A stretch of 8,932 nucleotides of DNA from Candidatus Korarchaeum sp. (GTDB lineage Archaea; Korarchaeota; Korarchaeia; Korarchaeales; Korarchaeaceae): contig JAJHQZ010000021.1 in NCBI GenBank assembly GCA_020833055.1, positions 1 through 8,932 on the forward strand, given 5' to 3'. This document shows positions 1,804 to 6,909 of this stretch, in pieces (the stretch's first letter is position 1; every line of letters starts with the position of its first letter). A program made the translations under genes and the position numbers. The notes below the pieces were generated by a model. The model worked only from the letters and a program-made list of their open reading frames with translations. It ran no database searches and was not told the DNA's origin.

Positions 1804-2667
1804 ATGCTCAGAGGATTAGGCGATGGCATCCAAGTGCTCCCGGGGAGCCCCTCAACTCTCTTCATCCCTTCATCGGATGGCTACTACATAATAGATCCGG
1901 GATCTTCCGAGGAGAGGAGAGCTTATATAGAGGCTCAGGGGAAGATAAAAGCTGTTCTGATAACTCACTCACACTCGGATCATATATTAGCCGCTAGGGA
2001 TTTGAGATCCGAACTGGGCGTTTTCGCTCCCCTCTCCGAGACCCCCTTCATAGAGTCCCCGGAGCTCAGGGAGGCCACTACGTTCGGGGGTTACGCTCCC
2101 TGGAAATTGATATTCCACGTAGAGGCAGTTCCCCTGAAAGTGGATAATCCATTCAGGCTGCCCTTCAATTTAGATGGGATAGAGGCGATCCCCCTACCTG
2201 GCCATACATTCGGGCAAGTGGGTTATGTAGCCAGAGGGATTTTGTACGCTGCCGATTCCTTCTTCGGAGATAAACTCCTGAAGAACGTTGTGATCCCTTA
2301 CTTCTTGGATTTCGAGACCGCTATGAGTACTATAGAGTTCTTGAGGGATAATGCGAGGGAATTCGAGAAGATAGTCCCCTCACACGGGCCTATAGTCGAG
2401 GGAAGGAGGGCTATAGAGCTCCTAGAGATGAACATGAGGGCGATGGAATCGATAAGGGAGAAAGTGATATCGATCCTCAGGGGGAGGAAGATGTGCGTCG
2501 AAGCTCTATCAGCTAGGATATTGAGGGAGGGAGGTGCTGAACTGACCCCGGGATCTATAATACTCTCCTCAGTGACTATAAGGTCCCTGCTCTCCAGGCT
2601 CTATGAGAGGGGCATAGTGGATGCTGAAGCTAGTGAGGAAGGCATACTTTGGAAGCTCAACGATTGA
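1804..2667 (+). CDS. Metallo-beta-lactamase-fold hydrolase with C-terminal winged-helix-like domain
   Basis: This 287-residue soluble enzyme binds two metal ions and probably hydrolyses an ester, thioester or phosphoester. The HxHxDH signature is intact (THSHSDH, residues 54-60). The remaining ligands are in place: H134 in LPGHTFG, D151 in YAADSFFGD and H194 in VPSHGP, so it should be active. The strand YYIIDPGSS (27-35) is the usual MBL entry. Residues about 212-287 form a helical tail ending in a wing-like REGGAELTPGS...LYERGIVDAEA segment, the layout of LACTB2-like and glyoxalase-II-like MBL proteins with a C-terminal winged helix. The start is the first in-frame ATG and has no Shine-Dalgarno, fitting a leaderless transcript. 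The 3' end overlaps the convergent neighbour by 11 bp. The substrate is unknown. Confidence 0.9.
   Translation: MLRGLGDGIQVLPGSPSTLFIPSSDGYYIIDPGSSEERRAYIEAQGKIKAVLITHSHSDHILAARDLRSELGVFAPLSETPFIESPELREATTFGGYAPWKLIFHVEAVPLKVDNPFRLPFNLDGIEAIPLPGHTFGQVGYVARGILYAADSFFGDKLLKNVVIPYFLDFETAMSTIEFLRDNAREFEKIVPSHGPIVEGRRAIELLEMNMRAMESIREKVISILRGRKMCVEALSARILREGGAELTPGSIILSSVTIRSLLSRLYERGIVDAEASEEGILWKLND
2657..2667. other. Convergent 3' overlap of two genes
   Basis: The last 11 bases of the MBL hydrolase gene (plus) and of the 579-residue protein gene (minus) are shared, with stop codons TGA at 2665-2667 on plus and TGA at 2657-2659 on minus. No intergenic terminator can exist here, so transcripts must read into each other's 3' end or stop within coding sequence. 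Confidence 0.9.
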
Positions 2668-4396
2668 GGAAGCCCATCAGACGGTCCAGGATACCGGCTC
2701 TAGCCTTCATCTCCACTAGAGCTGGATGAATCGGATCCCTGAGATCGAACTTGAGGTCAATAAGTTGCTTTTCATCCTTAACAGTGACCTGAAGCAGCGG
2801 ATGTTCATATCTATAGCTCATCACCCTGACCTCTCCCCCTACCGCTCCCCTAACTATCCTCTCAACGGTCTCCTTCAAGATCCTGGGCTCTACCTCCATT
2901 GAACCATCCTCAAAGGAGTAGCGAACCACGAAGAGGAACATCCCCATCCGGTCCATGCCATTCAAATGGAGGAAAGCGTTTACTCTCCCCCTCCTTCCCT
3001 TGAAGAGCGACCTAGGTTTTATCTTCCATAAGATCTCACTGGGATTCCTCTCAAAATCTAGTCTTAGGCTCACTCCCAAGTTGTATTTCGAGGATAGCTC
3101 CATCTCAGCCTCCCTTATTACATCTTCCAGGCATCCCTTTCCCAGGAGGATCCCCTCATCCCCCTTCAGGAGGAAGGAGAGGCAAGCATCACTACCCTCG
3201 AACTTACAGAAGAGCAGATATCCCGAGCTCTTCGGATCGTAAGCTGCTCTCTCAACTAGCAGCGACATATCCGGTGATCCCCTGAGATCGTTCAGTTTGA
3301 AGACCGAGAACTTCCATGAGCCCCCTCTCCTCGATTTGACGTAGAGCAGGGAGTCATCCACATCATAATCGAGCTCATCTGCATTCAATATGCGCTTCAA
3401 TGCGCCTTCATCAACTTTCTTACTCAGGATATGCACTTCACCGCTGGAAGCATCGTAAGAGACGTTCAATACCACGAAATTTATGGTCAGGGTCATGATG
3501 AAGCTCACGCGAGTCTCACCATCCCTCTCCACCACTCTGTAAGATCTAGCGATATCTTCCATGGATAGCTCGATCATGGAGGGATCTACGGATGTTATCC
3601 TCGAGATCTCCCTTATGACGTTCCTCCTCATTTCCTCTAATCCCGGGAGCTTCACCCTATTCATCGCTCCAGAGTACCTGTTGACCCTGATGAGCTCCAA
3701 CTCACCACCCATCTTCACTATGAAGTTAGCGTAGCCATCATCTGATCCCCTCGCTAGGATCTCGATTCCTACAGATGCCTTCTTTTTATCGAACAGGGCA
3801 TCCCATGACCTCGTTATAATCCTCCTCCCGGCCCCTTGATCCGAATTCTTGATGGACTCCAAAACAGTGGTTTCGAGTTCCTCCAGCGGTATTGGCTTCA
3901 ATGAGACTCTCCTTCCCCTTTCACTCAGCTCCGCCTCTCCGATCTCCCTGTCCCCTAACTTCAGGGAGTACTTGAGCTTCCTCGCTATGAGGACGGTTTC
4001 AGCATTCAATACTTTAACTGAACTCTTGGGGACCCTCAGGGACTCCGAGAGGGCTTCTAATAAAAATTCTCTAGCTTCTCCCCTGGATATCTCGCTATTA
4101 ACCTCTAACTCGATCTCCCCAGCTAATTCGAAGCTGAGGTAGTCCGAAGCCCTGAAATCGATCAATTTGGGTTTTGGGGAGTTCAAGACGAGGCTCTTAC
4201 CGCTCTTATACAGATATGGGACGAAATCCTTCCTCCCCGATCTATTCGTATAACTCACTTGCCAGTTAATGAGGACTCCGTAATCGACTGAAGCCCATTT
4301 GAGCTCAAATTTGACCTCAGATGGGTCTATTCCGCTCTTCATAACCTCAGAATCTAAAGAAATGCTCAAGTTCTTGGGTATCAGGACGATCTCCAT
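2657..4396 (-). CDS. Unrecognised 579-residue beta-rich repeat protein, partner of the BrxL-like ATPase
   Basis: I do not recognise this protein. It has no signal peptide, membrane segment, Walker motif, zinc cluster or Lon serine-lysine dyad, and is presumably cytoplasmic. It looks mostly beta with short helices, and I see about six similar units. Each is a strand, a turn such as SG, DG or ERG, another strand, a short linker, then an acidic-start amphipathic helix. Approximate positions are 88-120, 150-183, 234-266, 306-336, 404-433 and 488-518; examples are NRYSGAMNRVKL-GLEEMRRNVI and RYSFEDGSMEVEP-LKETVERIV. This layout recalls PepSY-like modules, but that is inference only. The start at 4396 is chosen over an in-frame ATG at 4453 because GAGGTGGAG (4402-4410) lies 5 bases upstream and the extra 19 residues would lie wholly inside the preceding gene. 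It overlaps the ATPase gene by 16 bp, so the two are translationally coupled and probably work together. Confidence 0.8.
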   Translation of the reverse strand: MEIVLIPKNLSISLDSEVMKSGIDPSEVKFELKWASVDYGVLINWQVSYTNRSGRKDFVPYLYKSGKSLVLNSPKPKLIDFRASDYLSFELAGEIELEVNSEISRGEAREFLLEALSESLRVPKSSVKVLNAETVLIARKLKYSLKLGDREIGEAELSERGRRVSLKPIPLEELETTVLESIKNSDQGAGRRIITRSWDALFDKKKASVGIEILARGSDDGYANFIVKMGGELELIRVNRYSGAMNRVKLPGLEEMRRNVIREISRITSVDPSMIELSMEDIARSYRVVERDGETRVSFIMTLTINFVVLNVSYDASSGEVHILSKKVDEGALKRILNADELDYDVDDSLLYVKSRRGGSWKFSVFKLNDLRGSPDMSLLVERAAYDPKSSGYLLFCKFEGSDACLSFLLKGDEGILLGKGCLEDVIREAEMELSSKYNLGVSLRLDFERNPSEILWKIKPRSLFKGRRGRVNAFLHLNGMDRMGMFLFVVRYSFEDGSMEVEPRILKETVERIVRGAVGGEVRVMSYRYEHPLLQVTVKDEKQLIDLKFDLRDPIHPALVEMKARAGILDRLMGFLNR

Positions 4397-5838
4397 CTGA
4401 ACTCCACCTCGAGCTCGTTGGGGTATTCGTGAGGAAGCTTCAGCCTCAACCAATCCCTCACTAGCTTCCTCATCTCTATCGCGATATCCACTATCCTCTC
4501 CATGGTCTCCCTATCCCTGACCTTGAGGTCTGGGTAGATCAGCTTTATAGCCCCGGAGACGAGCCTTATCAGGGCCCTCTCATCCCTTATACTGACGTTC
4601 CCGAACTTCATGAAGCTCCTCGCGATTGTTGAGGCATCGAACTTCCTCATCTCATGCAGCCAGTATGATATGAGATCCAAGGAGAGGCCCTTCCCTCTCG
4701 CTATATGCTCCTGCGAGCTCCTTATCTTCGGGAGCTTCCAGCCAGGTAATATGCCATGTATCCTGTCCATCAATGCTGTGTCCCTGGCGAACTCCGGAAG
4801 GAAGCTATCGATGTCGCGGGGCGAGCTGGGTATACTCTCAACGTTTCCGATGAAGACGAGGGAACAATCGCTCGATACAAGCTTCCCTCCCCTCTCGTAA
4901 TTCCCGCTCTCCATATAGTCCTTGAGCTTCCCTATCATCTCCTCAGTCCCGCTCAAGCTCAAGTAATTGATCTCATCGAATACTACGGCATCCATAAGGC
5001 CTATGAGTCCTATCGTCTTCGTCAGCTTATTGTAGAAGAGTTCGCTGGGGGAGGCCCTCCCTCCCGATATTACCCTGACCTTATGGGAGATGTTCTTGTA
5101 GAGATAGCTCTTCCCCGAAGCCCTGGGCCCGAACTCCATCATATTCACGTTGCACTCTATGAGGGGGACCAGTCTCATCAGATAGAGGATCTTCTGCTCG
5201 AAATCGTAAGAGCTGGGATTGAGGCCCAAACTCTGTATTAGGATATCCATCCATTCCTCATCAGTGAAATGGGGTCTCGCCCCTCGGAAGTATTCGATAT
5301 CGAAGCTGCTTATCTCATATGGGTGGAACTCCACCATCAGTACGGGCTCTGATTTCTTATCCCCATATCTTCTCCCATCATCGAAGATCAGCTTTCCTAT
5401 CCCCCAGACACCGTTCCTAAGCAAGTTCTCATGCTCTTCCAGTATCCTAGGATCTATCATAGCGTTCTTGAGGTTCAGGACGGGTATCTCGAGCCTATGG
5501 ACCCCTGACTTTATATCAGTCACTACTTTGAAATCGTCCAGTATAAATTGCTCCCCTTTACTCATGAGCCTGTTCAATACGACGTCTTTCTCCTCGGGCT
5601 CCGGTCTCAGCTCCCTCAGATACTCGGCGATCCAAGAGGGGCATTTGGGTAGGGGGATATCACTGCACAACTTCAGGATCAGATACTCCTCTATATAACG
5701 CGGGATCTTATAAGCGGAGAGGTTTAAGTGGAATCCCTTCTCAACCACGCAGCTGGAATCGAAGAATATCAAAAGCTTTCTCTCCAGATCCCTCGATAAT
5801 GTCGATTCTGAGATGAACTCCCTACCCTGTTCCTTCAT
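4381..5838 (-). CDS. brxL-like: BrxL-type AAA+ ATPase lacking the Lon-like protease domain
   Basis: BrxL proteins are ring-forming AAA+ ATPases of BREX phage-defence loci that bind DNA and resemble replicative helicases. This 485-residue protein shows the family's features in order. An N-terminal domain carries DIKSGVHRLEIPVLNLKN (about 108-125), and RGARPHFTDEEWMD (about 185-198) precedes the ATPase core. The core has Walker A FGPRASGKS (236-244), ISGGRAS (257-263), ELFYN (266-270), Walker B VVFDE (285-289), KDYMESG (306-312), sensor VFIGN (328-332), the arginine-finger-like DRIHG (358-362) and PGWKLPK (365-371). A helical lid with RDERALIRLVSGAIKL follows. The protein stops at LEVEFRWRSS, about where the Lon-like domain begins in the 650-700-residue bacterial form. 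I choose ATG 5838 because a TATA box at 5863-5870 lies 28 bases upstream; a GTG at 5853 (490 residues) would precede the transcription start. The partner gene overlaps its 3' end by 16 bp. No other BREX gene is visible. Confidence 0.85.
   Translation of the reverse strand: MKEQGREFISESTLSRDLERKLLIFFDSSCVVEKGFHLNLSAYKIPRYIEEYLILKLCSDIPLPKCPSWIAEYLRELRPEPEEKDVVLNRLMSKGEQFILDDFKVVTDIKSGVHRLEIPVLNLKNAMIDPRILEEHENLLRNGVWGIGKLIFDDGRRYGDKKSEPVLMVEFHPYEISSFDIEYFRGARPHFTDEEWMDILIQSLGLNPSSYDFEQKILYLMRLVPLIECNVNMMEFGPRASGKSYLYKNISHKVRVISGGRASPSELFYNKLTKTIGLIGLMDAVVFDEINYLSLSGTEEMIGKLKDYMESGNYERGGKLVSSDCSLVFIGNVESIPSSPRDIDSFLPEFARDTALMDRIHGILPGWKLPKIRSSQEHIARGKGLSLDLISYWLHEMRKFDASTIARSFMKFGNVSIRDERALIRLVSGAIKLIYPDLKVRDRETMERIVDIAIEMRKLVRDWLRLKLPHEYPNELEVEFRWRSS
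4402..4410 (-). promoter_or_regulatory. Shine-Dalgarno site deciding the start of the 579-residue gene
   Basis: On the minus strand GAGGTGGAG lies 5 bases before the ATG at 4396-4394, and its GAGGTG core is 8 bases away. It matches the archaeal anti-SD well and sits inside the 3' end of the upstream ATPase gene. It therefore supports internal initiation in a bicistronic message rather than the longer frame starting at 4453. Confidence 0.7.
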
Positions 5839-5860
5839 CAGATCGAATAGCACTCGATTT

Positions 5861-5870
5861 CTTATAAAAA
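5861..5870 (-). promoter_or_regulatory. TATA-box promoter of the BrxL-like/partner operon
   Basis: In the 66-base gap after the DUF354 gene, the minus strand reads TTTTTATAAG, preceded by a purine-containing GGATCAA that could serve as a weak BRE. The box centre is about 28 bases before the ATG at 5838, the spacing expected for a leaderless archaeal mRNA. This gives the two-gene unit its own promoter even though the DUF401/DUF354 genes read in the same direction. Its T run may also help end the upstream transcript. Confidence 0.65.
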
Positions 5871-5904
5871 TTGATCCTGTCTTAACTAATAGGGACCAAA
5901 GGAC

Positions 5905-6909
5905 TCAAGAGAATCTAGATCTTATAACTCTCACGAGGACCTCAGCTGGATCCTCGCATCCCCTCAAGAACTCCCTAGCCCTCTCCCTGAGCCTCCCGCT
6001 CTCCCACTCCTTCCTGAGCTCATCGTAAACCGAGGAAAGATGGCTAGCTTTCATACCGGTAGCCTTCCTCATGAGCCCCTCGCTCAATAGTATCTTGCTC
6101 ACGCAGGGATCCTCGCCCGGGAAGAGGGAGATGGAAGGTACTCCCAGCAGAGCCGCTTCCCTGGCCATAGTCCCCCCTCCGGATATCACGCCAGCTGATC
6201 TGGAGATGAGGGAGATGCCATCTATACTCGCACTCACCCTCTCCCCCGATGGCAGCTCTATGATCCCCTCCCTCATTATCTTGACGGCTGGGATCCCCTT
6301 CTCCCTAAGGAACTTCTCCACGATACTCTCGAAGGGGCCGCCCTCCTTCAGGTAATGGGATGCCACTGGCGGGTACCTGATCACGATGTACTCCCCCTCA
6401 TCTAGCCCCAGATCAGATTTCACGAACTCCCCATCCTCCGTGAAATCCAAAACGTGTGAGACCTCGAACAGCCCCCTGAACCTCATAGTCTCGCTGTAAG
6501 TGGGGCCTGAGAAACACTCGGGGACTATGGATAGTGTTGATAGGGGGAAGGTGAGCTTCGTCACTATATGAGGGGGGATGTCGTTATCGTTCATAGCTAT
6601 ATAAGGTATCCCCAGGCCGAAGGCCACTCTAGCTTGCTCAACCGATGCCTTAGATACCGCAAGATCTATCTCTCTATCAGCTATAAGCAACGCGAGCTCC
6701 TTTACCCTCTCAGCGAATGATACTAGCTTCTCATAATCGCTAGCTCCCCACTTCCCAATTACTTCAGCCTCTATCGGTATCATGGCCCTCAGGAGCTCAA
6801 CTAAAGAGCCCTTCCTCCTCGTCGTCAGGAAAACTCGGCCTCTGAACTTCTTCAGGAACCTCCTCCAGAACCTGACGTTGGCTTCATTCACTATATCGAT
6901 CCAGATCAA
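5905..6909 (-). CDS. DUF354 family protein, GT-B glycosyltransferase-like
   Basis: This 334-residue protein has the usual DUF354 length and layout. It opens with the strand MIWIDIVNEANVRFW, the family's N-terminal 'WIDI.N..hv.F' signature. It continues with VFLTTRRKGSLVELL (26-40), EAEVIGKWG (47-55), the strand IPYIAMNDND (101-110) and YIVIRYPP (174-181). The C-terminal nucleotide-sugar-type loop is VISGGGTMAREAALLGVPSIS (about 241-261), which resembles UDP-GlcNAc epimerase and MurG-like GT-B enzymes. It is cytosolic and probably acts on a nucleotide sugar or lipid-linked sugar; the reaction is unknown for the family. The start is TTG at 6909 within a TTGA overlap with the DUF401 stop, with GAGGTCGA just upstream. 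The next Met is at residue 43, after conserved sequence, so TTG is the only sensible start. It is co-transcribed with the DUF401 gene. Confidence 0.85.
   Translation of the reverse strand: MIWIDIVNEANVRFWRRFLKKFRGRVFLTTRRKGSLVELLRAMIPIEAEVIGKWGASDYEKLVSFAERVKELALLIADREIDLAVSKASVEQARVAFGLGIPYIAMNDNDIPPHIVTKLTFPLSTLSIVPECFSGPTYSETMRFRGLFEVSHVLDFTEDGEFVKSDLGLDEGEYIVIRYPPVASHYLKEGGPFESIVEKFLREKGIPAVKIMREGIIELPSGERVSASIDGISLISRSAGVISGGGTMAREAALLGVPSISLFPGEDPCVSKILLSEGLMRKATGMKASHLSSVYDELRKEWESGRLRERAREFLRGCEDPAEVLVRVIRSRFS

Follow-up and report, generated by a model that had tools for sequence, protein, structure and literature searches.

What does a BrxL ATPase do in an archaeon where the other BREX genes are missing, and what does the gene directly downstream contribute? 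The window, that is, the whole stretch of DNA analyzed here, is a complete contig of 8932 bp from a 1.39-Mb Korarchaeum genome that is 99.5% complete. Our preferred answer, to which we assign a probability of roughly 0.55, is that the two genes form a compact, mobile system of the defense type, made of a short BrxL and a dedicated cytosolic PepSY-like partner. What looks new is the mobile BrxL-partner module, short BrxLs devoid of a Lon-like domain being already known; in the literature on TIGR02688, COG4930 and orphan BrxL, we found no description of such a module.

A short BrxL outside any BREX system

The brxL-like gene spans positions 4381 to 5838 of the minus strand and encodes 485 amino acids from ATG 5838, or 490 from an alternative GTG start at 5853 (4381 to 5853, minus strand), the reading frame being intact from either start. 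ATG 5838 is the preferred candidate, because a TATA-like box (TTTTTATAAG, positions 5861 to 5870, minus strand, also present in the relative G010) precedes it by about 27 nt, a spacing that would suit a leaderless archaeal transcript, and because the G010 orthologue, which is 96% identical, has no GTG at the same codon.

The encoded protein is a true BrxL and belongs to the short form described by TIGR02688. Its whole-protein score against TIGR02688 is 414.1 bits, above the curated cut-off of 329.3, and it matches the BrxL_ATPase and BrxL_N profiles with 365 and 92 bits; against TIGR02653, the model of Type-1 BrxLs with a C-terminal Lon-like or HKD domain, it scores 287 bits, below the cut-off of 628. 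The profile searches ruled out MCM and standard Lon as identities of the ATPase. Residues 21-470 align with residues 7-456 of a solved 679-aa BrxL (8EMC; E 4e-62). Across 47 aligned BrxLs, invariant positions comprise the D and E of Walker B (VVFDE, 4972 to 4986), the G and N of Sensor 1 (VFIGN, 4843 to 4857) and the D and R of DRIHG in the arginine-finger region (4753 to 4767); the G and K of Walker A (GPRASGKS, 5107 to 5130) and the P and K of PGWxxPK are invariant or nearly so (all minus strand). The preliminary description had read intact BrxL motifs in a short protein, and profiles, alignment to a solved BrxL and multiple alignment all confirm this.

Compared with Type-1 BREX BrxL (TIGR02653; 8EMC), the N-terminal and ATPase domains can be aligned and all motor residues are kept, but the Lon-like domain of about 220 residues that pairs two rings is lacking: only 20 residues follow position 470, versus 221-223 in two long BREX BrxLs. 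This absence does not mark a separate branch, because the Lon-less form is the normal TIGR02688 form, is also that of Type-4 BREX, whose BrxL likewise consists of an N-terminal DNA-binding region and an AAA+ ATPase with no C-terminal extension (PMC12839542), and is common to nearly all short BrxLs that we fetched. The preliminary proposal of a stand-alone archaeal branch therefore holds as regards a position outside BREX and a different partner, and is wrong or too strong as regards the missing domain.

Unlike a Type-4 BREX locus, the window carries no PglZ, no BrxC above cut-off and no adjoining phosphorothioation gene; a single uncharacterized partner is found instead. Apart from brxL, no BREX core gene is present on the contig, and neither a PglX methylase nor phosphorothioation genes occur beside brxL among the window ORFs. 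In G010, a single-contig relative, the pair occupies the same position with the same neighbors on both sides, and no BREX gene was found in the approximately 20 kb read on each side. Genome-wide, PglZ (PF08665) has no match in the window's own genome, while control genomes gave matches. The corresponding BrxC search, made with the profile of the DUF6079 family alone, returned a sole signal of 16.9 bits (cut-off 23) in a 380-aa AAA protein. The BrxL described here thus stands outside any BREX system, alongside another partner, as had been anticipated from the sequence.

The partner gene

The partner gene lies directly downstream of brxL, at positions 2657 to 4396 of the minus strand, and encodes 579 amino acids from ATG 4396, or 598 from an alternative TTG start at 4453 (minus strand). 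If ATG 4396 is used, it overlaps the brxL stop by 16 nt (4381 to 4396, minus strand). The spacing is overlapping or near zero in all relatives that have the partner, and such overlapping frames may reflect translational coupling.

The partner lacks any hydrophobic stretch of the kind expected for a membrane span and is predicted to be cytosolic; a membrane or secreted PepSY protein is ruled out on the same ground. No Pfam family matches the window partner above cut-off, PepSY (PF03413) included. The sole member of the partner family to pass is that of L021, another Thermoproteota archaeon (30.9 bits, cut-off 24), and it is via this relative that we tentatively use the term 'PepSY-like'. A core of the window protein, residues 228-400 (3254 to 3772, minus strand), is common to the Thermoproteota partners and is modeled as helix-plus-sheet units, each with a helix and three to four strands (mean pLDDT 86); for the protein as a whole, the confidence of the model is low. 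Used as queries in fold searches, the full model and this core retrieved only low-Z, beta-propeller-like entries and one YpeB entry (5BOI; rank 11, E 0.013, amid unrelated beta-propellers), and no solved structure stood out. The likeness to PepSY/YpeB-type proteins resides in the L021 score and the modeled units, whereas the predicted cytosolic location, the lack of a nearby protease and the missing Pfam match set the window partner apart. A search for internal repeats gave a single marginal non-overlapping pair, from which we do not conclude that the partner is repetitive. We also considered a detached Lon-like C-terminal domain of BrxL and rejected it, as profile comparison of the partner with full-length BREX BrxLs revealed no similarity (E 0.74).

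Within the genus, brxL and the partner co-occur in the same 4 of 16 genomes (G000, which is that of the window, G010, G012 and G005), always adjacent and with overlapping frames. A more distant form of the partner is found 3' of BrxL in G017 (C46), and a related protein of 544-573 aa follows BrxL in Pyrodictiaceae/Desulfurococcales (L013, L026) and in L021. Profile comparison of the Korarchaeum-genus partners with the crenarchaeal ones gives a score of 42.6, whereas none of 60 column-shuffled controls exceeds 24.3; with a probability of about 95%, the G017 protein matches either set. Because of this score and this intermediate protein, we assign the Korarchaeum-genus and Thermoproteota partners, on profile evidence, to one family. 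The family is rare: it occurs in 2 of 398 genomes of one phylum, taken as Thermoproteota, and in 3 of 214 genomes of one order. No confirmed relative of BrxL or partner was detected on viral contigs.

A two-gene insertion under purifying selection

In six congeners (G003, G005, G007, G011, G012 and G014), the two genes found on either side of the window pair are immediate neighbors in convergent orientation, a few to about 70 bp apart. They encode a metallo-beta-lactamase-fold hydrolase (left, 1804 to 2667, plus strand) and a DUF354 protein (right, 5905 to 6909, minus strand). Since the flanks lie tail-to-tail in these congeners, the window and G010 carry a clean insertion of about 3.2 kb made of just brxL and the partner, with short intergenic sequence (2668 to 5904 in the window). 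G012 and G005, in which this site is empty, have the pair at other places, and the stretches read around it have no flanking gene families in common. The pair looks like a mobile unit that has been inserted at different genome sites. Conserved pairing, co-inheritance and movement as a cassette strongly support the earlier suggestion that this BrxL works with a different partner. In G012, a Csx1-type CARF gene (Csx1_CARF; L032:3791-4873) lies upstream of the cassette at a distance of about 1.4 kb.

Could the pair instead be the replication or maintenance genes of a plasmid or virus, left behind in the chromosome? MCM-like ATPases are common on archaeal elements, and the clean insertion of the pair alone would fit. 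However, no integrase, capsid or replication-origin gene is seen with the pair, viral contigs provided no confirmed relatives and the L021-type partner was not found on plasmids, so that we regard this origin as rather improbable.

Both genes are under purifying selection, with dN/dS of about 0.19 and 0.18 between the window and G010. This bears on another reading, in which the pair would be all that is left, without function, of a BREX or restriction system since lost; the absence of other BREX genes would agree with it. That reading is already largely refuted and we give it hardly any credence: both frames are open and selected, and the partner, which is no BREX component, has been retained with BrxL across two archaeal groups.

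A genome-maintenance role should also be weighed, in which BrxL, as an MCM-like DNA ring, would serve repair or the restart of replication, the partner would be a regulator and neither would take part in defense. MCM helicases are the closest structural relatives of BrxL (PMC10164562). The immediate neighbors of the pair in the window, L013 and L021 are housekeeping genes and not a defense island; the Pyrodictiaceae copies are in such surroundings, and the L021 copy lies beside a dCTP deaminase and an AGOG-like glycosylase. Moreover, in a sister BrxL clade the preceding gene encodes a conserved hydrophobic protein and the surroundings are chromosome-like. We nevertheless consider this role unlikely, given that the pair is present at different sites in only 4 of 16 congeners and that the partner evolves fast: between the window and G012, dN is 0.59 for the partner and 0.21 for BrxL, a nearly threefold difference.

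Mobility, patchiness and coupling of two genes would also be expected of a toxin-antitoxin-like addiction pair, in which one protein would hold the other in check, and PepSY domains are presented as protease-inhibitory domains in a passage of PMC6393860 that cites earlier work. We find this interpretation very doubtful, since BrxL has no protease active site (PMC10164562), neither gene resembles a known toxin and both proteins are large.

A possible role in defense

The reading that we favor, a two-gene system of the defense type, draws on what is known of BrxL in BREX. The Acinetobacter protein forms ATP-dependent rings on double-stranded DNA, its C-terminal domain pairs two rings, and its ATPase is required for restriction (PMC10164562). 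Most BREX systems tested depend on BrxL for restriction, but methylation does not require it (PMC12707154, PMC10164562). By analogy with Acinetobacter, and judging from the conserved domains and motor residues, the window BrxL would assemble in an ATP-dependent manner into an MCM-like ring of six subunits on double-stranded DNA. The partner may dock on this ring as a substitute for the absent Lon-like ring-pairing domain, may decide on which DNA the ring is loaded, or both. As no nuclease domain is seen in either gene, the loaded ring would block replication or processing of the invading DNA without cutting it. The module would then be a small system that restricts viruses or plasmids and spreads as a unit. 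A defense function appears plausible for the pair, although its immediate neighbors in the window, L013 and L021 do not form a defense island; the main gap in this reading is that no modification enzyme accompanies the two genes, which leaves the sparing of self-DNA unexplained.

We tentatively put forward a bolder version: BrxL and one PepSY-like adaptor may constitute a complete, methylation-free, two-gene system against invaders, a cassette moving among hyperthermophilic archaea in which the adaptor recognizes the target, a task that elsewhere falls to several other BREX proteins. Such a natural two-gene setting could make the BrxL ring and an adaptor accessible to study in isolation from the remaining BREX proteins, and the pair could be a natural minimal system for finding out the role of BrxL.

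A further sequence bears on restriction. G004, a congener without BrxL, encodes a 726-aa protein (L119:3-2180, minus strand) in which an Mrr restriction-endonuclease domain (34.1 bits, cut-off 21) is fused to a partner-like region. This region matches the Thermoproteota partner profile with an E-value of 2e-4 in that genome and an hhalign score of 35.6, versus at most 22.4 in 40 shuffles. Because the Korarchaeum-genus partners by themselves give no significant match, this link between the partner family and restriction is suggestive only. A GHKL-ATPase gene is located 1.3 kb upstream of the fusion (L119:3486-4985, minus strand). Further hints of defense are the Csx1-type CARF gene near the G012 copy and the other short BrxLs that follow Type IIG restriction genes, DUF499, or PglZ plus a BrxC-like gene.

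Short BrxLs in other settings

In one archaeal phylum, taken as Thermoproteota, 398 genomes were sampled and 29 of them carry a BrxL relative; Thermotogaceae also have short BrxLs. The preliminary description had called for a survey of the neighborhoods of short archaeal BrxLs, and in it the partner does recur, but Type IIG, DUF499 and PglZ plus BrxC-like settings are also seen.

The commonest arrangement in the fetched loci is a short BrxL directly behind a Type IIG restriction-methylase-like protein of about 1225 aa (PADLOC score 1284 bits). We observed it at L028:6292-9951, L025:6276-9959, L022:6317-9994, L098:4294-8013 and about ten more loci, and the two genes often overlap by a few nucleotides. 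No account of this two-gene arrangement was found in the papers searched. These archaeal and Thermotogaceae pairs resemble the window pair in BrxL length and motifs and in having two adjacent genes; however, BrxL is the second gene, the companion is a restriction-methylase and the BrxLs occupy a separate part of the BrxL tree. Further short BrxLs are preceded by DUF499 or by PglZ together with a BrxC-like gene, and one (L014) is inside a BREX-like locus.

A maximum-likelihood tree of BrxL sorts the sequences by neighbor (partner-, hydrophobic-protein- or restriction-linked), with two changes for three states. The AU test does not reject a single clade for the partner-linked BrxLs (p-AU 0.46), although such a clade is not thereby proven.

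Other settings were observed in passing. In six genomes of one phylum, taken as Thermoproteota (L083, L084, L085, L089, L090 and L094), BrxL follows a protein of about 285 aa that has an N-terminal hydrophobic stretch and belongs to no Pfam family; in five of the six, its C-terminus reads NRI(E/D)RLL, possibly a docking peptide. Two Bathyarchaeota BrxLs (L020:2572-4512 and L023:9920-11818) bear a C-terminal extension of 180-190 residues, for which the L020 sequence gave no Pfam match. Finally, on Thermus/Meiothermus plasmids (L104:1510-9587 and L105:1592-9551), a BrxL of 510-540 aa ends an operon with vWA and tubulin-like genes and is followed by 3'-5' exonuclease genes.
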